Shown here: one piece after another, positions 6,571 to 16,828 of the stretch
How the letters are laid out: every line of letters starts with the position of its first letter
Numbering within the stretch: the stretch's first letter is position 1
From: Verrucomicrobiia bacterium
GTDB lineage: Bacteria; Verrucomicrobiota; Verrucomicrobiia; Palsa-1439
Length of the DNA: 64,000 nt
Assembly: GCA_022072455.1 (NCBI GenBank)
Contig: JAJVHY010000003.1
Coordinates: 62,001-126,000 of the forward strand
Reading direction: 5' to 3'
The notes under the pieces: generated by a model
What the model was told of the DNA's origin: nothing
Seen by the model: the letters and a program-made list of their open reading frames with translations, nothing else
Database searches by the model: none
Position numbers and translations under genes: made by a program

Positions 6571-6770
6571 ACCGGTTCAACCTACCCTTAATTGAGCGTG
6601 CCTGCTTGGGTTTTTCTTGGAATTTGCAACGGTTTTTTAACGGGCGGCTAGCGCGGGCTGATGCGCTGGACACAGCGCACGTTACACCGCGGCCGGTCAG
6701 CCCAAATACCCCTGCGCTTTGACCGGATTCCCCTAGTCGCCGCCGATGGCATTTGGCAGTGTCGCCGCTC
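6571..6770. other. Intergenic region between pseudopilin and glycosidase genes
   Basis: The part next to 6570 is T-rich and likely carries the promoter of the minus-strand pseudopilin trio. The centre holds a nested hairpin (6655-6703). No further gene was seen. Confidence 0.4.
6655..6703. repeat. Nested inverted repeat
   Basis: GGGCTGA at 6655-6661 pairs with TCAGCCC at 6697-6703, enclosing a perfect inner hairpin TGCGCTG-GACA-CAGCGCA at 6662-6679. No T run follows, so a dispersed structural repeat or a transcription-blocking element is more likely than a classical terminator. Confidence 0.4.
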
Positions 6771-8897
6771 ATGACTTCCACCATTTCTTGGGACAAGACC
6801 GGCTACATCATCAATGGCCAACGCCGCTTTCTCATCTCCGGCGAAATGCATTACTTCCGCTGCCCGCCCGCCGATTGGCGGCGCCGCTTGGAACTCTTCA
6901 AAGCCGCCGGCGGCAACGCCATCGGCACCTACGTCCCGTGGGCGTACCACGAACCGACCGAAGGCCAGTTCCTCTTCGGCGACAAACCCACCCGCGACCT
7001 CGAAGCCTTTCTCACGCTCTGCAAGGAACTTGACATCTTCGTCATTGCCCGGCCGGGGCCGTATCAATACTCCGAGATGGACTACGCGGGGTTACCGGCT
7101 TGGTTGTTGGCGAAATATCCCGAAGTCCGGTCCCGCGATCAGCAGGGAAAAGAGCACCGGTTTTTCGCTGTCTCCTACCTGCACCCGACGTTCTTGGAAA
7201 AGAGCCGGGCGTGGTTCGCGGCGGTCTGTCCGATTCTTGCCAAATACACCGTCGCCCGCGGCGGGCCGATCGCCTTTGCCCAATTCGACAATGAACTCGT
7301 CGGCATCCATGAATGGTTTGGCGGCTGGGATTACCACCCCGTCACCATGGGCTTCGGCCAACCTGCCGGCCGCTACCATCTCTTCCTGAAAAACCGGTAC
7401 GCCTCCATCGCCGCACTGAATCGCCGGTATGAAACGAACTTCCCTGACTTTACCGCCGTTGAGCCTTTCCGCGCCACTCCCGGCACGCCCGCCGAACGCA
7501 ACCGCGTCCGCGATTACCACGAGTTCTACCTCGCCACCGTCGCCGAATACAGTTCGACACTGGTGACATGGATGCGCGAGTTCGGCTTCGACTGCGACAC
7601 CTGCCAGAACGGCATCGCCCCCGCCAATCACCGCAATTTCCGCGACTGGCCGGCCTTGCGCGACCGCTGCATCGTTGGGGTGGATCATTATTACGCGCTC
7701 GGCCTCGGCTGGAAACAAAACAACCCGACGCCGCAATACACCATCGGCAGTTTCATCGAACTCGAGATGCTCCGCGCCTTGGGCTGGCCGCAGACCGTCT
7801 ATGAACTGCCCGCCGGCAGCCTCAGCGACTGGCCGCCGATCACCCCCGAGGATGCCCGGTGCTGCTATATGCTTCACGTCGCTTACGGAATGAAAGGGTT
7901 CAACTACTACATCTACACCGGCGGCGTGAATCCATCCGAACTCGCCCGCATGCTCACGGATTACGATTACCAGGCGCCCATCTCCGCCCACGGCGAAATC
8001 CGCCCGCTCTACCACATGCTGAAAAGCTTCCACCAGTTCCTCAACGACAACGCCTGGCTCGCCGGCAGCGAACGCGTCGCCGACCTGCGCGTCGGCTTGG
8101 ACTGGACGCACGCCCTCAGTAAGTCTGTCTTCCCGGCCCGCGCCGGTGATGATTTCTCCGACGGCGAAGCGTGGACAATGGTGGCGAACGGTCTGCTCCT
8201 GACTTCACTCTGTGCGTCGCGGTCGCCCGAACTGCAAGATTTGTCGAGCGACGTCCTCCTCCAGCGCACCGACTTGCCGTTGTTCGTGGCCGCGTCCGTC
8301 TGCATGGCGGCGGACATTCAACAACGCCTTATCAAATTCGTGCAAGCCGGCGGGCGGTTGTTCCTCGCCCCGGTCATTCCGCACCTCGACGAAAATTTTC
8401 AACCCTGCACCTTGCTCCGCGACTTCCTCGCCGCCGCCCCGGCCACGCTCCAACGCCGCGCTGACCATCCGGCGCTGTTGGCCATCGGCCCCATCCCGCC
8501 GCACTGGGCCATGGCGGATGTGTGGGTGACCGATGAATTACCGGCGCGCGCAACGCGGATCGGGACTGAAACCATTGCCGGGAAAACCATCGGCTGGAAA
8601 AAGACGTTGCCGACCGGTGGCGCGGTCATCTGGCTTGGTGTGCAAATGACGCACGTGTGGAAAGAGCATTGCCAATTGATTCAATGGCTCGCCGCCGAAT
8701 TGGGCGCGCCGGCCACAGTGGTGGAATGCAACAGCCAATACGTCTGGGCCACGCTCCGTTCCGACGGGAAACGATCCATGCTGTTCGCAATGAACCTGTT
8801 CTCAGCGCCGATGACCGCGCGCGTCAAAGTCAAAAACTTCGATACCGGCGACTTCACCCTCGCCCCAATGGAAGTCCGTACGTTTCTCGTGCCATGA
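6771..8897 (+). CDS. GH35-like beta-galactosidase family protein
   Basis: A 708-residue protein whose first 350 residues look like a glycoside hydrolase family 35 TIM barrel: NGQRRFLISGEMHYFR near the start, then GGNAIGTYVPWAYHEP, then ARPGPYQYSE, and FAQFDNELVG near residue 170, which corresponds to the QxENE acid/base segment of GH35. A probable nucleophile Glu lies in VYELPAGS near residue 344. The ATG at 6771 is preferred; the frame continues to a TTG at 6753. There is no obvious signal peptide, so a cytoplasmic enzyme is likely. It overlaps the next glycosidase-like gene by ATGA, suggesting joint breakdown of a galactose- or arabinose-containing substrate, which the sequence does not define. 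Confidence 0.8.
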   Translation: MTSTISWDKTGYIINGQRRFLISGEMHYFRCPPADWRRRLELFKAAGGNAIGTYVPWAYHEPTEGQFLFGDKPTRDLEAFLTLCKELDIFVIARPGPYQYSEMDYAGLPAWLLAKYPEVRSRDQQGKEHRFFAVSYLHPTFLEKSRAWFAAVCPILAKYTVARGGPIAFAQFDNELVGIHEWFGGWDYHPVTMGFGQPAGRYHLFLKNRYASIAALNRRYETNFPDFTAVEPFRATPGTPAERNRVRDYHEFYLATVAEYSSTLVTWMREFGFDCDTCQNGIAPANHRNFRDWPALRDRCIVGVDHYYALGLGWKQNNPTPQYTIGSFIELEMLRALGWPQTVYELPAGSLSDWPPITPEDARCCYMLHVAYGMKGFNYYIYTGGVNPSELARMLTDYDYQAPISAHGEIRPLYHMLKSFHQFLNDNAWLAGSERVADLRVGLDWTHALSKSVFPARAGDDFSDGEAWTMVANGLLLTSLCASRSPELQDLSSDVLLQRTDLPLFVAASVCMAADIQQRLIKFVQAGGRLFLAPVIPHLDENFQPCTLLRDFLAAAPATLQRRADHPALLAIGPIPPHWAMADVWVTDELPARATRIGTETIAGKTIGWKKTLPTGGAVIWLGVQMTHVWKEHCQLIQWLAAELGAPATVVECNSQYVWATLRSDGKRSMLFAMNLFSAPMTARVKVKNFDTGDFTLAPMEVRTFLVP

Positions 8898-10357
8898 TCA
8901 ACTCAACTCTCGCCCAACTGAACGCGTGGACCGGCACGTCTTCGCTCGTCCTTGAATTCGACCCCGCGCAGTGCCACGTCACGTTGCTCGGACGCTTGAA
9001 CGCCGACGGCAGCGTGAAGTTACCGGCCTTGATGCACTTTCCGGATCACGGGACGCTCCGCATTACCGGCAGCGGCTCGCTCGGCTACGACGCGACGCGG
9101 TTGAACAAGCCGTATGTGCGCGTCACGTTCCCGGCGGGGAAATACCGGTGGGAACCGGTGTGCATCCATCCCGACGTGCCCGGCATCGCGAGCGACCGGC
9201 GGTTCGACGGTTTCCGGCGCAACTGGCTGAACATTTTCCAGATCAACCCCAAGCTCCGCGTCCTCGCCAACCACGCCGCCAGCGACAACTGCACGCACCC
9301 GTTCTACAAGTACGCCGACATCGCCCGATACACACCGCCCTTGGCCGACGGCCTCACGGCGCTCGATCTGATCCGCGAATCGCTCGACCGGTATCTGAAC
9401 GGTTTGCTTTCCTACGGCATGCCGGGGTTCGTGATGTTCGAGTACGGCGGCCCGGCCTCGCACGAACCGCCGGCGCTCGATGTTTATCCCTCGCTGGTTA
9501 TCAGCGCCTGCATTGCCGGTGAAGATGATCCGGCTTGGTTCAAGCGTAATTATGCCGGTATCCGCGATTGGGCCGAGAAGATTCTCGCGATGGATGCCGA
9601 TGGCAACGGCTTGATCGAGTACAGCTTCACCGGCAACTCCGGCTCGTGGCCGGCGCTCGGCAAGGTACATCCGTCGAACTGGTGGGACTGCATCGGTTTT
9701 GGTCACGCGGATGCCTACGGCAACGCGCTCGCCTACCGGGCACTGCGGAGTCTGGCGAAGTTGGCCCCGGGCGCCGACGCGCCCCGGTATCAGGCCGCCG
9801 TCGACAAGTTGAAGGCCGTTTATTTCCCAACCTTCTTCAACCCCGCAACCGGTATTCTGGCTGGGTGGCGGAGTGCGGACGGGGAGTTGCACGATTATTG
9901 GTTTGTCTGGCTCAACAGCGCCGCGATTCATCTCGGCCTTGTTCCTCACGAACAGGCCAACGCGATCATGGATCGCCTCCTCGGGAAGATGCGGGAGGTC
10001 GGATTCCAGCGGTTCGATCTCGGGTTGCCCGGCAATCTCGTGGTCGTTCCGCAAGCCGACTATTGCAGCCCGGATCCGCGGTGGGGCGGGGCGGGGGCGT
10101 TCCAGGTGTACGAGAATGGGGGCGCGACGGCCTGTTTTACCTACTACACGTTGGCGGCCTTGTATGAACTGGGACGCCGCGAGGAGGCCGACCGGATTTT
10201 ATTTCCCATGCTTGAGTCGTATGCGCAGGGCGGTTTTTCCGGTGGCGGCACGAACGGAATGACGAACGATTGGAAAACCTGGGACGGCACGCCGTGGGGC
10301 TACGAAGGTTTTCTGGTGGACAATTACTACGCCCTGCTCGCCGTGTTGCGCCGGTAA
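8894..10357 (+). CDS. Six-hairpin glycosidase-like protein
   Basis: A 487-residue protein starting at ATG 8894, overlapping the stop of the upstream glycosidase by four bases. The central and C-terminal parts have the look of an (alpha/alpha)6 barrel, with repeated helical hairpins, DADGNGLIEY, SNWWDCIGFG and a GAFQVYENGGATACF segment. Acidic residues in these loops could be catalytic, but I cannot place a specific GH family (GH63-, GH78- or GH127-like folds are possible). No signal peptide is visible. The coupling to the GH35-like gene points to a two-enzyme saccharide degradation unit. Confidence 0.65.
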   Translation: MINSTLAQLNAWTGTSSLVLEFDPAQCHVTLLGRLNADGSVKLPALMHFPDHGTLRITGSGSLGYDATRLNKPYVRVTFPAGKYRWEPVCIHPDVPGIASDRRFDGFRRNWLNIFQINPKLRVLANHAASDNCTHPFYKYADIARYTPPLADGLTALDLIRESLDRYLNGLLSYGMPGFVMFEYGGPASHEPPALDVYPSLVISACIAGEDDPAWFKRNYAGIRDWAEKILAMDADGNGLIEYSFTGNSGSWPALGKVHPSNWWDCIGFGHADAYGNALAYRALRSLAKLAPGADAPRYQAAVDKLKAVYFPTFFNPATGILAGWRSADGELHDYWFVWLNSAAIHLGLVPHEQANAIMDRLLGKMREVGFQRFDLGLPGNLVVVPQADYCSPDPRWGGAGAFQVYENGGATACFTYYTLAALYELGRREEADRILFPMLESYAQGGFSGGGTNGMTNDWKTWDGTPWGYEGFLVDNYYALLAVLRR

Positions 10358-10358
10358 G

Positions 10359-11366
10359 TCAACGGGACGGGCGTTGGACGCCTTCGACCCATATCGGGAG
10401 TGTGGTGCCGTGAAGGGTGCCGTTGTGCTTGCCGGTTTCATCACGAATAGTCGCGCCTTCGCCTTCATTGAAACGCCAATAGGCAATCGTGTCCCCATCC
10501 AATGGGAAAGATGTTGTCGGGGTGAAATTACCGTCGTACCGGGCGACGCGGGAAATGCGGACTTCGTCGAAGGTACCGTCCGTATAGCAGTTGCCGTGAG
10601 TGGCCCGATAACCAATTCTCAACGGGCACTGTGCCCCGGTTGCACCAGCGGTGTACGGCTGGGAGCCTACTCGCACACCGTCAATATAGAATCGCATTTG
10701 ACCCTCGCTGACGACGCCAGCCCAATGATGCCATTGGCTGTCGAGGATATTCATTTTTGTTGTCACATCTTGCCCTTCTTCATGCCGATCACGTGCCCAA
10801 AACCGAACATTTTGCTGGAAGATGTCCATTTGGATGCCGGCTTGTTGACCACAATCGTCACCAAGCCGCATGATGGGGGAAAGCATCTCACCTTTTCCGC
10901 CGGAGATATTTGCCCAGAATTCAAGCGTCCATCCTGCCATAACATCAAAGGCGTCGCTGGCGGGAAATTCGACATAGTTCTTATTGGCGGATTGTAACCG
11001 GATGGCGTGTCCGCCGGCTTCGCCGCCGACTTGAAAGTCACGCACTTGTGCCAGCGGAATCTTGGCTTTGCCGAATACGGTTGTGAGTGTGATCTCAGGA
11101 AGATTGAGTGTGCCCTCCAATTTGTCGCCGTTCGACAGGCGGATGCTGACAGAACGGCGATCGGCGGCGAACCGGGCGGAGGAAATTTTTTCCACTGGAA
11201 TATTCAATTCACCAAGAGAGGCCGAATGAACTGCAACGGTTGTCAGTTCGGTGGTGCCGATGACGCGCGAGCCATCGTTCAAGTTTAACAGCAAGCGAGC
11301 CGGCGTGGCGAGCGCGAGAGTGAGACTGAACAGGTAAACCGTCGTTGCAGCCGGAAAAATGCGCAT
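10359..11366 (-). CDS. Secreted LamG-domain protein
   Basis: A 335-residue protein with an N-terminal signal peptide (hydrophobic segment YLFSLTLALA). An all-beta region follows (about residues 20-120) with repeated NDGSRVIG / NGDKLEG units. Residues about 130-325 form a concanavalin-like LamG domain: VEFPASDAFDVMAGWTLEFW, then WHHWAGVV, then FYIDGVRVG, FDEVRISR and IAYWRFNEG are hallmark strands. ATG 11366 is preferred to a GTG at 11372 because it starts the signal peptide cleanly. The gene is convergent with the glycosidase pair. Such proteins usually bind carbohydrate or surfaces; the ligand is unknown. Confidence 0.75.
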   Translation of the reverse strand: MRIFPAATTVYLFSLTLALATPARLLLNLNDGSRVIGTTELTTVAVHSASLGELNIPVEKISSARFAADRRSVSIRLSNGDKLEGTLNLPEITLTTVFGKAKIPLAQVRDFQVGGEAGGHAIRLQSANKNYVEFPASDAFDVMAGWTLEFWANISGGKGEMLSPIMRLGDDCGQQAGIQMDIFQQNVRFWARDRHEEGQDVTTKMNILDSQWHHWAGVVSEGQMRFYIDGVRVGSQPYTAGATGAQCPLRIGYRATHGNCYTDGTFDEVRISRVARYDGNFTPTTSFPLDGDTIAYWRFNEGEGATIRDETGKHNGTLHGTTLPIWVEGVQRPSR

Positions 11367-11454
11367 GGGCACTTACTAGCATCCGTCAGTCTCGGACACA
11401 AGCGTTGGAATGCTTGGCAGGATGCGCCCGGCAGCCTAGAATACCGGGCGCTGT

Positions 11455-13398
11455 ATGCCGGACCAAAATCTCCCCATCACACCGCCCAGCGGTGACTCGA
11501 CTTGGCTCGAACAGTACTACACGGCGAGCAAGACCCACGAGCGCGCCGATGGCGTGGATGATGCCGGCTATTCTGTCACCGCGCATATCGCGGCGGCAGA
11601 CAAATACGCCGTCGGCGAGGAAGTTGGCAGCGGCGGCATGAAATCCGTTCGCCGCGCCCGTGACCAAAACGCCAATCGCGACGTGGCGATGGCGGTGTTG
11701 TTGGACGAGAAACACAAGCCCCGTTTTCTCCGGCGCTTCGTCCGCGAAGCCCGCCTGACGGCCGCGCTCGAACATCCGAACATTGTCCCGGTCCACGAAG
11801 TCGGCATGGGCGACGATGGCCGGCCGTATTTCACGATGAAATTGTTGGGGGGCGAGTCGCTGCACAGTATTCTCCAAAAGCTCGATTCCGGCGAACCAGA
11901 CTACCGCCAGCGCTACAGTCTCGCGCGCCTGCTGCAGATCTTCCTCGGCGCCGGCAACGCGGTGGCGTTTGCGCATTCACGCGGGGTCATCCACCTCGAC
12001 CTCAAACCGGCCAACATCCAAGTCGGTGGCTTCGGCGAAGTGTTGGTGCTCGACTGGGGTTTGGCGAAAATCATGGAGCGCCCCGGCGCGCTGGAGTTGC
12101 CGGCGGAGTTGCGGGTGGTGCATACCGAAGGGGTGGTACGCGGCACGCCGGGGTTCATGGCGCCGGAACAGATCCGCGGCGAGTACTCGAAGTTCGACGA
12201 ACGCACGGATGTCTACGCGCTTGGGGTCGTGTTGAGCACCGTGCTGACCGGCAAGTTACCAGCGCCAAATGAACGGCCGGTCTTTGACCGCCGGGTGCCG
12301 GTCGCGCTGCAAGCGGTCGCGCTCAAGGCGCAGGCGGCTGCGCCGGCAGACCGGTATCAGTCGGTGCGCGATTTGTTGCGCGACGTGCAGGCGTTCCTCG
12401 GCGGGTATGCGACCTCGGCGCAACAGGCGTCGGCCTTGACGGTGTTGTGGTTGTTGATCAAGCGGCAAAAGCGCGCGGCGACGTTGGTGGCGGTCAGCGC
12501 GGTGGTGATTTTGACGATTGGCGTGGTGGCGTTCGTGCGCATCGCGCGCAGTGAACGCGTGGCGTTGGACGCGCTCGAACAGATTCGCCAGGAACAGGCG
12601 GCCAACCGGAAACTCGGCTTGCTGGCCGCGCCGCGGGTGTATCAGCGCGCGGGAGAGCTGTTCCGCGCGTATGATTATGACGGAGGAATGGAGCAATTGA
12701 ATTTTGCCGTCGCGCTGGACAAGACGCTGGCGCCGGCCTGGACGGTGAAGGCGTGGTTGCATCTCGGGCGGACGGAGTTCGATGAGGCGTTGACGGCCTT
12801 CGGGCGCGCCTCCGGCAAGCCGCTTGACCGGTCGTTACCCCCGCCGGAGAAACCCAAGACGCTGGAGGAGTTGGCGCTCAAATATCTGAACGTGCCGCCC
12901 CTGCTGACGAAGGAGCAACGGCTCGCGTTGGCTGGCGAGCTGTATCGGCTGGGGCGCGCGCAGGGGGAATGGATGCAGTGGATGCTGGGCCAGTTTTTCA
13001 CCCTGCAAAACCGGCGGACCGTGGACTTTGAAATCGTGAACGCGGAATTCAAAATCCTGAATCCCGACGCGAAGAATCTGGAGGTGGTCCCGTTGATGAC
13101 GGCGGATGGGCTGACGGTGGCGGTGCGCGGTGACAAGGTGGTGACGTTGCTGCCGTTGCTGGGGCTGTCGTTGACGGCGGTGGATGTGTCCGGCGCAATC
13201 GGCGCGGATCTGAATCCGTTGCGGGCGATGAGCCAGCTTCGGGAACTGCGGCTCGTGCGCTGGCCGCGGAATCTTTTCTCGCGGCTCTGGCCGTTGACGC
13301 AACTGACGCGCGTGGTGGTGGCGGCGCCGGACGTGGTGCCGCTGCAAAACGATCTCAAAGTGCGGATGCCAAAACCGCCGGAAGTGGTCGGCGAGTAA
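11455..13398 (+). CDS. Ser/Thr kinase-like receptor with WNK-like lysine rearrangement
   Basis: A 647-residue protein. Residues about 50-315 form a eukaryotic-type kinase domain; one membrane helix lies near 338-360; the remainder is a helical/TPR-like segment and a C-terminal region with leucine-rich spacing. Unusual residues: the glycine loop reads GSGGMKSV (Lys63 at the third Gly position), the VAxK lysine is Ala80 (VAMAVL), the catalytic loop is HLDLKPAN (HRD Arg replaced by Leu, Asp182 kept), and the DFG motif is DWG. The Glu98 of helix C is present. Lysine in the glycine loop with loss of the beta-3 lysine is the arrangement known from eukaryotic WNK kinases, so the protein may be active despite lacking the standard lysine. 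It sits next to an ECF sigma factor gene. Confidence 0.85.
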   Translation: MPDQNLPITPPSGDSTWLEQYYTASKTHERADGVDDAGYSVTAHIAAADKYAVGEEVGSGGMKSVRRARDQNANRDVAMAVLLDEKHKPRFLRRFVREARLTAALEHPNIVPVHEVGMGDDGRPYFTMKLLGGESLHSILQKLDSGEPDYRQRYSLARLLQIFLGAGNAVAFAHSRGVIHLDLKPANIQVGGFGEVLVLDWGLAKIMERPGALELPAELRVVHTEGVVRGTPGFMAPEQIRGEYSKFDERTDVYALGVVLSTVLTGKLPAPNERPVFDRRVPVALQAVALKAQAAAPADRYQSVRDLLRDVQAFLGGYATSAQQASALTVLWLLIKRQKRAATLVAVSAVVILTIGVVAFVRIARSERVALDALEQIRQEQAANRKLGLLAAPRVYQRAGELFRAYDYDGGMEQLNFAVALDKTLAPAWTVKAWLHLGRTEFDEALTAFGRASGKPLDRSLPPPEKPKTLEELALKYLNVPPLLTKEQRLALAGELYRLGRAQGEWMQWMLGQFFTLQNRRTVDFEIVNAEFKILNPDAKNLEVVPLMTADGLTVAVRGDKVVTLLPLLGLSLTAVDVSGAIGADLNPLRAMSQLRELRLVRWPRNLFSRLWPLTQLTRVVVAAPDVVPLQNDLKVRMPKPPEVVGE

Positions 13399-13404
13399 CC
13401 GGCG

Positions 13405-14019
13405 TCAATCGAGTTCGTTGTTCAGCCGGACGATTTCCTGGCGGAGCCGGTCGGTCACGCGTTTTTTGTAGACGTAAATGCTGCTCGGCGCCAGCCCGAG
13501 TTTCTTCGCGACCACGTCCACGTCGGCGCCTTTCGACATCTGTTCGAAGGCGGCTTTTTCGTTGTCGCTGAATTCGCCGGCAATGCGTTGCCACGCCAGC
13601 GTGCTGACGTAGGTGATCCATTCCCGGTCGGCGATGGCCTGGTTGGGTTCGGGTTGGACGCGATGGAGGTATTGCCGGAGTTCGTGTTGTTCGTCGGCGG
13701 TGAGGCGGTTGAGTTTGGTGGCGCGACTGCGGAGGAGCATTTTCACTTCATTGCCGGTGACGGTGCAGAGCCAGCCGCGGAACCGGCCTTTGGTTTCGTC
13801 GTAGACAAATTCCGGCAGGGTTTTCCAGAGTTTGAGCATGACCGTCTGGACGATTTCTTCGGCATCGTGGTGCGTCAGGCCCATGCGGCGGCCGATATTG
13901 TACACGTAGCCCCGGTAATAGTAGACAAACTCCTCCCACGCGGCCTGATCGCGTTGCCGGCGGACGCGCTTGATCAACGTCTCGCGCGTCACCCACGCAT
14001 CTTGCTCTCGTCCACTCAT
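13405..14019 (-). CDS. ECF-type RNA polymerase sigma factor
   Basis: A 204-residue protein. Region 2 is visible in EEFVYYYRGYVYNIGRRMG, HHDAEEIVQTVMLKLWKTLP and the RFRGWLCTVTGNEV stretch; region 4 with a helix-turn-helix is in VDVVAKKLGLAPSSIYVYKKRV near the C-terminus. The start at 14019 (MSGREQ) was chosen because the upstream extension of the frame is not sigma-like. It lies between two Ser/Thr kinase genes, convergent with the first and divergent from the second; ECF factors linked to Ser/Thr kinases are common in the PVC group. Target promoters are unknown. Confidence 0.85.
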   Translation of the reverse strand: MSGREQDAWVTRETLIKRVRRQRDQAAWEEFVYYYRGYVYNIGRRMGLTHHDAEEIVQTVMLKLWKTLPEFVYDETKGRFRGWLCTVTGNEVKMLLRSRATKLNRLTADEQHELRQYLHRVQPEPNQAIADREWITYVSTLAWQRIAGEFSDNEKAAFEQMSKGADVDVVAKKLGLAPSSIYVYKKRVTDRLRQEIVRLNNELD

Positions 14020-14107: not shown

Positions 14108-16828
14108 ATGAGCGAGATTCCCGCCATCAATCTTGGCGATAAACTCGGCCAGTTTAAGCTGGTCGAGTTGATTGCTGTTGGCGGCATGGGCATCGTTTAT
14201 CGCGGGTATGACACCGCGCTGGACCGGTATGTGGCCGTCAAGGTTTTGGCGCCGGCATTGGCCAAGGATCCGGCCGTGGCGGGGCGCTTTCTCGATGAAG
14301 CCCGCGCCGCCGCCACGCTCAACCACAACAACGTCGTCCACATCTACAGTGCCGGCGAACAAGCCGGCGCCGTGTACTTCGTGATGGAACTGGTCAACGG
14401 CCAGCACCTCGAAGCCGTCTTGAACAATCAGGCGCCGCTGGTCGTCCGCGAAGCCGTCGAGTACATCCGCCAAGCCACGCTCGGCCTCCAGCACGCCCAC
14501 GAACACGGCATCATCCATGGGGACGTCAAACCCGGCAATTTCTTGATCTCGGAGACCGGCGTTCTCAAGGTCACCGACTTTGGGCTGGCGCGCCGTGTCA
14601 AGGCGGCGTCCGCTACGAGCGATGGCGGGAGTGTGTTCGGCACCCCGGGCTACGTCAGCCCCGAGGTCATTCAGGGCAATGCGCCTGACCATCGCAGCGA
14701 CATCTACTCACTCGGTGCGACGTTCTTTCACGCGCTGGCGGGGCGCGCGCCATTTGTTGGCGCGACGCCCGAAGACACCTTGCGGCGGCAAATCCGGGAC
14801 CCGGCCCCGCCGATCCAAAAGTTCAATGACGCCGTGCCACCGGCGATCGGTCAGATCATTGCCCGCATGTTGGCCCGTGAACCGTCCGGCCGGTATCAGA
14901 GCTATGCCGAATTGCTGCAAGCCCTCAATCGGTCCAGCGGCGAACCCAAACCGCCCACGACCAGTCCCCGGCCCGGCCCGCGTTTGGCCAAGGCAGCGAG
15001 CGCGCCGGCCACCCCGCCGGTGGCCCCGCCGCCCCCGAAGAAAAAGGACAACTGGTTCACGTTTGCATTCACATTCATCGCCTTCATTGGGAGTCTGATG
15101 ATTTTGTATCTGGTGTACCGGCACCTCTTAACGCCCAAGCCGCCGCCGGCGGTGGCGCCGGTCACCAATGTGTTGAGCGCGCCGGTTTCCCCGGTGGTGC
15201 CGGCCCCGCCGGTTCCCGCCCCGACGGATGCGGAAGCCCAAGTGGAATATCGCGCTCTCAAATCGCAGGCCGACGCGGCGCTGGCCGAGCGGCGGTGGGG
15301 GCGCGCGTATGCGATCTATCAGAAATGGCCGGCCACAAAGTATGGCGGCACGCCGACGCACCAGATCGTGGCCGGCGAACTCCACCGCATCACCGAGGCC
15401 GCCCGGCAAGCGTGGCAGGAATTGCAGCCGCAGATTGCGAGCCGGCGGGACGAACAAAAATACCGGGAAGCCCTCACCCTGGTGGATCAATTTGCAGAAC
15501 AGTGCGGGGGCTTGAAAAGTTTATTGGCCGAGATAACCGCCGCCCGCCAGCCGCTGGCCGATGCTGAACGTGAACTCGCTCTTGCGCAAGCCGCCGCCAT
15601 CCGCACGAAGCTGAGCCAGTTGCGCCCGCAATATGACGCCCTCATCCTGAATTACCAATGGGAGAAAGGCCAGCAGGAGGTGCAACGCGCCATCACCGAA
15701 GCCGGTGCCGCGAGTGAACTGGGACAGGCTTTGAGCCAGTGGCAGACGGTCTTTACCAGCTTAATTGCCTTGCGGACCGGGGTGGCCCAACGGGTGCAAG
15801 ACAAACCGCCGGGCCTCATTCCGTTGGCGACGAAGCGGGGCGAGCAAAACGTCCAAATCACCGCGGTTGATGCCGGCGGCATCGGCGTGCGACAGACTTT
15901 CGGCGCCGCCGGGTTTGCGGAAACTAAAATCCCCTGGACAGAGCTGACGGCGGGCGGGGTCGGGCGGGTCTTGATGTTGAATCTGGAGGCCAACAATGCC
16001 GACGAGCTGTTGGGCTACGCGCTGTTGCTGGCACATCAAGCCTTGGCCAAACAGGCGCGGATCGAGGATGCGCGGCGGATCTTGCAAGTGATGCTGCAAC
16101 GCGATCCAACCCGCACTGCCCTCCTCGATGACTATCTCCAGCGGTTGCAGGAACTCGAAATTCAGTTGACCCCGCCGCGCCCGGCCACTCCCGAGCCGGC
16201 CCCCGCCGCGCCGGCTGCCGAAGTCCCGGTTGCCAAAGGGTTCGTTGCCCTCGAGATCGGCGACGGTTGCAACGCCGGTTTTTTTGAATCCGATGACAAC
16301 CCCGGTGAGTTCAGCCGCAAAGCCGGTTACCACGGTTTGCCGGAAGACGGCCGCATCGCGGTGCCGGGGGAGATTGGCGGCGGCGAGTTTCGGCTCCGCA
16401 CCGGCGTCAACCCCGACTCCATCGGCATCACTTGGGCGTCGGGGCGTTTTCCCAACTCTGTGACCATCAAGCTGCCGGCTGCGCAACAACGCCGGTATTC
16501 GCGGTTGGCGATCCTCAGCGCTTCCAGCACCAGCACGGCCACGATTCGCGCCCGGTTGTCGTATGAGACCGGCGACCAGACCGACACCCGCTTCAAAGTT
16601 TACGATTGGTCGCTCACCAAATTGCCCCAGAACGCCAACCCGCTGGTCGAAGTGACGTTGCCCAATTCGACCGTCGTCCGCCGCATGTTTCTGGATGTCG
16701 TGGACGCGGACCCGAAACGGCGGCTGACGGCCATCACGTTGATGTGGGTTTCGACCAACACGGAACATCCGCAACATTGCGTCGGCATCTTCGCCGTCAG
16801 CGGGCTGCCGGCCGACGGCGCGCGGTGA
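14108..16828 (+). CDS. Membrane Ser/Thr protein kinase with large extracytoplasmic region
   Basis: A 906-residue protein. The kinase domain (about residues 15-280) keeps the glycine loop VGGMGIVY, Lys45 in VAVKVL, the catalytic loop HGDVKPGN (HGD instead of HRD) and an intact DFG followed by a GTPGYVSPE activation segment, so activity is expected. A Pro-rich linker precedes one membrane helix (about 318-340). The extracytoplasmic part starts with a coiled-coil/helical region (about 380-560) and ends in a beta-rich domain after another Pro/Ala linker. ATG 14108 is preferred to the TTG at 14093. The stop overlaps the start of the MeaB-like gene by one base. It is divergent from the ECF sigma factor gene. 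Confidence 0.88.
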   Translation: MSEIPAINLGDKLGQFKLVELIAVGGMGIVYRGYDTALDRYVAVKVLAPALAKDPAVAGRFLDEARAAATLNHNNVVHIYSAGEQAGAVYFVMELVNGQHLEAVLNNQAPLVVREAVEYIRQATLGLQHAHEHGIIHGDVKPGNFLISETGVLKVTDFGLARRVKAASATSDGGSVFGTPGYVSPEVIQGNAPDHRSDIYSLGATFFHALAGRAPFVGATPEDTLRRQIRDPAPPIQKFNDAVPPAIGQIIARMLAREPSGRYQSYAELLQALNRSSGEPKPPTTSPRPGPRLAKAASAPATPPVAPPPPKKKDNWFTFAFTFIAFIGSLMILYLVYRHLLTPKPPPAVAPVTNVLSAPVSPVVPAPPVPAPTDAEAQVEYRALKSQADAALAERRWGRAYAIYQKWPATKYGGTPTHQIVAGELHRITEAARQAWQELQPQIASRRDEQKYREALTLVDQFAEQCGGLKSLLAEITAARQPLADAERELALAQAAAIRTKLSQLRPQYDALILNYQWEKGQQEVQRAITEAGAASELGQALSQWQTVFTSLIALRTGVAQRVQDKPPGLIPLATKRGEQNVQITAVDAGGIGVRQTFGAAGFAETKIPWTELTAGGVGRVLMLNLEANNADELLGYALLLAHQALAKQARIEDARRILQVMLQRDPTRTALLDDYLQRLQELEIQLTPPRPATPEPAPAAPAAEVPVAKGFVALEIGDGCNAGFFESDDNPGEFSRKAGYHGLPEDGRIAVPGEIGGGEFRLRTGVNPDSIGITWASGRFPNSVTIKLPAAQQRRYSRLAILSASSTSTATIRARLSYETGDQTDTRFKVYDWSLTKLPQNANPLVEVTLPNSTVVRRMFLDVVDADPKRRLTAITLMWVSTNTEHPQHCVGIFAVSGLPADGAR

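Follow-up and report, generated by a model that had tools for sequence, protein, structure and literature searches.

The gene at positions 11455-13398 of the window (the whole 64,000-nucleotide stretch of DNA analysed here) probably has as its product a catalytically competent membrane Ser/Thr kinase whose ATP-anchoring lysine would have moved from strand beta-3 to the glycine loop, with both its activity and its ATP geometry read from sequence. The same exchange is found in 125 distinct homologues, here called K-loop kinases, and it appears to have arisen separately in a second group of bacteria.

The K-loop kinase gene and its surroundings

The product of the rightwards transcribed gene matches the Pfam Pkinase profile (PF00069, E=1.4e-33), as expected of Hanks-type Ser/Thr kinases, and its sequence is that of a PknB-type membrane Ser/Thr kinase with a putatively relocated lysine. 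Its features, together with the adjacent ECF sigma factor gene, are as follows.

11455..13398, + strand: K-loop kinase gene, 647 aa (translation and Pfam Pkinase match)
Residues ~50-315 of the 647-aa protein: cytoplasmic kinase domain
11626..11649, + strand: glycine loop GSGGMKSV, residues 58-65
11641..11643, + strand: Lys63, putative relocated catalytic lysine at the third-glycine position, opening strand beta-2 in the model
11692..11694, + strand: Ala80 at the beta-3 VAxK lysine site (V77-A78-M79-A80, VAMA)
11746..11748, + strand: Glu98 of helix alpha-C, conserved among all K-loop homologues
11992..12000, + strand: HLD 180-182, Leu for Arg, catalytic Asp182 retained
12019..12021, + strand: Gln189, equivalent of PKA Leu173, beneath the adenine
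12052..12060, + strand: DWG 200-202, metal-binding Asp200 retained
12472..12552, + strand: predicted TM helix, residues ~340-366 (hydropathy)
12547..13395, + strand: C-terminal sensor-like region with a long helix, TPR-like helices and an LRR-like end
13405..14019, - strand: ECF sigma factor gene, tail-to-tail with the kinase gene (sigma-70 region 2, PF04542, E=1.6e-12; TIGR02937)

The translation bears out the placement of Ala80 at the VAxK lysine and of Lys63 at the third glycine proposed in the initial annotation, and the HLD and DWG that it read in place of HRD and DFG are both present, as is Asn187 of the catalytic loop. When the protein is aligned with human WNK1, Lys63 falls on the WNK1 loop lysine (GRGSFK) and Ala80 on the WNK1 cysteine (VAWC). 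A second kinase gene (14108-16828), divergent from the ECF gene, encodes a canonical PknB-like protein with GGMG, VAVK, HGD and DFG motifs, so that the normal lysine ascribed to this neighbour was correctly read. To the left, a LamG-domain gene (10359-11372, - strand) adjoins the K-loop kinase gene, and in the segment at 6753-10357 a gene for a GH35-type beta-galactosidase precedes a glycosidase-like gene with a weak rhamnosidase match.

An AlphaFold2 model of the kinase domain is a confident bilobal kinase fold (pLDDT 94.6, pTM 0.92) whose best PDB matches are to Mycobacterium tuberculosis PknB (TM 0.80); in this model Lys63 starts strand beta-2, Ala80 lies within beta-3 and Glu98 within alpha-C. 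The C-terminal part is modelled (pLDDT 95.1) as a long helix, helical hairpins and an end of repeated strand/helix units, and a fold search with it gave weak TPR matches alone (E 0.03 or worse). The corresponding sequences of relatives contain TPR-like and LRR-like repeats, and a TM helix is predicted in 53 of 56 relatives.

Exchange of the lysine among homologues

The homologues come from three sources: GTDB genomes, whole-genome searches that covered the phylum, the class and other phyla, and fetched regions. Among 327 distinct kinase domains, sites 63 and 80 are occupied by Lys and Ala in 124, by Lys and Thr in one, by Gly, Ala, Ser or Cys and Lys in 195, and by neither lysine in seven; no domain has both. 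The co-variation of loop lysine and beta-3 lysine loss, put forward as a check in the initial annotation, is thus seen throughout, with the beta-3 lysine absent from 125/125 K63 sequences and K63 absent from 195/195 canonical ones. A Fisher test of K63 against the beta-3 lysine gives p 9e-83, a value that is too strong since the sequences are related; the weight of the co-variation lies in its being free of exceptions across 38–50% identity and in its separate origins rather than in a simple p-value, and these independent origins are few (two bacterial, plus WNK). The single member with Thr at site 80 (L349, VALT) has its remaining catalytic residues intact.

All 125 K-loop sequences keep the alpha-C Glu98, the catalytic Asp, Asn187 and the DWG Asp, and in a 56-sequence alignment K63 and the catalytic-loop lysine are the sole invariant Lys/Arg columns. 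The codons for K63 are mixed (AAA in 70, AAG in 55) and Ala80 uses all four GCN codons, which argues that the pair is maintained at the protein level. HLD is found in 117/125 K-loop sequences and DWG in 125/125. These residues had been taken as part of a combined swap, and although they are correctly identified they do not belong to it: DWG is present in 113 canonical kinases and HLD in five canonical relatives.

Sites that changed along with the lysine were sought by comparing the 125 K-loop sequences with the 113 canonical DWG sequences. After 80 and 63, the most distinct sites are 189, 181, 233, 73 and 199. Site 189 is Gln, His, Asn, Arg or Lys in 110/125 K-loop sequences and Met or Leu in 110/113 canonical DWG sequences, with Leu or Met retained in about nine of the 125.

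Distribution and origin of the K-loop family

Within the genomes searched, the K-loop family is confined to Verrucomicrobiota-type bacteria, and some genomes carry dozens of copies. In a tree built without the trait columns DWG changes once, and a single 75-tip clade (SH-aLRT 95) holds every K63 sequence together with a canonical gene (L097/L196) and a degenerate kinase (L161); in a local tree the same canonical gene is a poorly supported neighbour of the window protein, a placement that tells against the favoured reading. A quick free tree that split the family was discarded, being 43 log-likelihood units worse than the tree holding it together, and a single K63 clade remained acceptable in a dedicated test. 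Read most simply, the exchange arose once in Verrucomicrobiota-type bacteria, from an ancestor that had DWG and a normal lysine. As judged from the 113 canonical kinases that carry it, DWG is older than the lysine swap, and HLD probably is too, because canonical relatives with HLD exist (L097, L157, L233 and L239).

Several observations bear on particular genomes. The Planctomycetota DWG kinases sampled are canonical, and spread into that phylum was dismissed because the best matches there are canonical too, with the exception of the bin nwagbin3 (G383; L010, L013, L236, L246 and L248), which is labelled Planctomycetota and contains many K-loop kinases; the label may be wrong. Large paralogue expansions are seen in Pontiella sulfatireligans (G385), where the best 23 matches were checked and all 23 are K-loop kinases, and in Lentisphaeraceae S10.bin.24 (G384), where 17/17 top-scoring matches are K-loop kinases and the scores suggest several dozen. 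The degenerate kinase near the K-loop clade (L161:2119, a - strand ORF) has NLN for HLD, EWG for DWG and a beta-3 lysine, and is probably a true pseudokinase. ORFs at L177, L185 and L188, paired with canonical HCD/DWG kinases, are pseudokinases in which Tyr occupies site 63 as well as site 80, accompanied by HAN or HSN and by GWG. A plasmid search returned no K-loop relatives recognisable by name.

A second K-loop clade in Actinomycetota

A pattern search based on kinases with an ALIKTEG motif identified one actinobacterial genome, and 397 genomes of Actinomycetota were then searched at the protein level. The resulting clade (L278, L279, L282 and L297-L303) has the form GxG(G/A)xK with VAxA or VAxS, such that the loop lysine is accompanied by Ala in seven and Ser in three of the ten members; 37 canonical relatives keep the beta-3 lysine. 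HRD and DFG are normal in this clade and its open frames are about 1000–1550 aa long. At the adenine-floor site all ten have Trp, where canonical relatives have Met, Leu or Ile, and in all ten Gly precedes DFG; WNK1 has Phe at the floor and Gly before its DxG motif.

A tree joining the Verrucomicrobiota-type and Actinomycetota K-loop groups is rejected (p-AU 0.002), and the placement of WNK1 relative to the actinobacterial clade is weak (support 26). The exchange would thus appear, from these sequences, to have arisen separately in Actinomycetota, with bacteria having invented the relocation at least twice. All three lineages combine a small residue where the lysine used to be with an unusual adenine floor, a pattern that we tentatively read in structural terms.

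Linkage to ECF sigma factor genes

Relatives of the ECF sigma factor adjoin 51/92 K-loop loci, compared to 2/115 canonical DWG loci and 6/71 others. The linkage follows kinase type, being present for 44/49 of the CDWG-type kinases of about 560–790 aa and absent from the K-loop kinases of about 370–430 aa; the window kinase counts among the long, linked members. Three layouts are seen: the ECF gene may overlap the kinase gene from upstream in the same orientation, converge on it from downstream (as at the window locus), or follow it downstream on the same strand; in Pontiella an ECF gene is within 200 bp of 20/23 top-scoring members. The likely start of the window ECF gene is MSGREQ at 14019, within a longer ORF extending to 14193, and the gene may belong with either of the two kinase genes (11455-13398 and 14108-16828).

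This proximity suggests that a K-loop kinase and its adjacent ECF form a signalling pair, in which the sigma factor would be a substrate or a partner. Other Ser/Thr kinase genes are known beside ECF genes, as with ECF43/PknT and EcfK/PknS, and in ECF43 phosphorylation restores a lost charge of the sigma factor (PMC8103513). The acidic DAED motif is, however, lost in the ECF43 type (PMC8103513) and retained in ECFs of the window type: the window ECF reads DAEE there and most relatives keep D/E, so the ECFs of K-loop kinases are not of the ECF43 kind, and its phosphorylation-driven activation does not carry over to them in that form. Coupling could possibly take the form of sigma phosphorylation at another site, or of shared control of an upstream step. 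A link to sulfatase or glycan genes was also considered, with 16/68 flanking ORFs being sulfatases, and was set aside, because in Pontiella proximity to the top 150 sulfatases is at chance level (3/23 within 5 kb against an expectation of 4.1; p 0.82).

Proposed mechanism and alternative explanations

We propose that the lysine anchoring the alpha and beta phosphates of ATP would have passed from beta-3 (the Ala80 site) to the third-glycine position with which beta-2 opens (Lys63). There it would be able to form a pair with Glu98 and extend to the phosphates in the manner of WNK1 Lys233. The small residue at the old site would provide space for Lys63, with the adenine-floor residue changing alongside. 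ATP binding and catalysis look preserved, because the alpha-C Glu and the catalytic Asp, Asn and DWG Asp are kept without exception. The loss of the HRD Arg together with a polar adenine floor could reflect a changed nucleotide preference. The C-terminal TM/TPR/LRR part probably serves as a sensor, picking up a signal across the membrane, with the adjacent ECF sigma factor as the likely downstream partner.

The proteins might instead be pseudokinases that bind nucleotide and act as scaffolds or allosteric regulators, for example of the ECF, with K63 serving solely to bind ATP for stability. One catalytic-triad residue is formally missing, which is how pseudokinases are usually defined (PMC12599244), and the HRD Arg is missing as well; however, the HxD Asp, Asn187 and DWG Asp, which are required for transfer beyond binding, are the very residues that all 125 sequences keep, and L161, in the same region of the tree, exemplifies a real loss of catalysis, so that we regard this explanation as unlikely. 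We are somewhat more doubtful that these are active enzymes with another co-substrate, the polar site 189 and the Cys before DWG marking the use of another nucleotide, such as GTP, or a different transfer reaction. The rank of site 189 directly behind 63 and 80, and the strong difference at site 199, would agree with this, but the members that retain Leu or Met at 189 and the Hanks-type character of the remaining pocket speak against it.

Acquisition of a eukaryotic WNK by horizontal transfer is most improbable. The lysine occupies the same position, and the HPNIV and GTPxFMAPE segments are alike, though these are common among Hanks kinases; yet there is no WNK among the 60 sequence and 50 fold matches listed, of which the best are PknB and PknA, the K-loop family is nested in the bacterial DWG clade, and it has HLD and DWG compared to HRD and DLG in the WNKs. 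There is just as little to recommend a chance substitution, a sequencing error or a decaying gene, as the 647-aa frame is intact in the assembly and 125 distinct sequences have the pattern, in mixed codons.

Comparison with known kinases

The preferred reading, that of a working kinase with a relocated lysine, recalls human WNK1-4, which share the Lys at the third-glycine/beta-2 position, a small beta-3 residue (Cys in WNK), the alpha-C Glu and an altered adenine floor, and which Kannan et al. (2007; PMC1821047) regarded as unique among functional ePK families in lacking K72, the beta-3 lysine. There are several departures. The K-loop family has Ala (124) or Thr (1) at beta-3 but never Cys; it has HLD for HRD, and the Trp of DWG replaces the DLG Leu of the WNK chloride site; the window kinase has a membrane sensor architecture and an ECF partner; and the relation is limited to the kinase superfamily, with WNK1 falling outside the bacterial DWG clade. 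The WNK1 substitution L369F is chloride-insensitive (PMC13397483), and chloride sensing by K-loop kinases is unlikely because the DLG Leu is replaced by Trp. We infer that the K-loop active site works in a WNK-like manner; the family itself is no WNK and arose independently.

PknB and PknA resemble the window kinase in fold, in sequence and in the order of N-terminal kinase, TM helix and C-terminal extracytoplasmic part, but their VAxK lysine, HRD and DFG are canonical, and PknB has PASTA repeats where the window kinase has TPR/LRR-like ones. The CAK-chloro family is also a bacterial kinase-like group in which the K72 charge has apparently moved to glycine-loop position 55, although it has Arg in the loop, Met at K72 and has lost the alpha-C Glu, and is distant and small-molecule-kinase-like (PMC1821047). 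A 2025 review describes seven bacterial pseudokinase families (DYD, DLHK, GLW, CP1 and ActPs1-3), which are likewise Hanks-type without the beta-3 Lys and some of which are proposed to bind ATP via other basic residues; in the descriptions of these seven, the exchange to loop Lys and Ala beside an intact HxD/N/DxG set does not occur (PMC12599244). We found no bacterial WNK-like family in the open-access literature.

Significance

On balance we favour, with some reserve, the view that moving the lysine into the glycine loop is a solution that evolution can repeat, reached separately in at least two bacterial lineages and in WNK, each time joined by a small residue in the former place of the lysine and an altered adenine floor, and that in Verrucomicrobiota-type bacteria it founded an expanded set of ECF-paired sensor kinases. 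A bacterial family with well over 100 members, and tens of copies in some genomes, offers independent replicates of a rare active-site rewiring and a source of soluble bacterial proteins suited to structural studies. The co-changing sites 63, 80, 189 and 199 form a set that is testable through residue swaps. For kinases lacking VAxK, the motif alone is no ground for calling them dead. The tight pairing with ECF sigma factors points towards a signalling system in bacteria that have been little studied.
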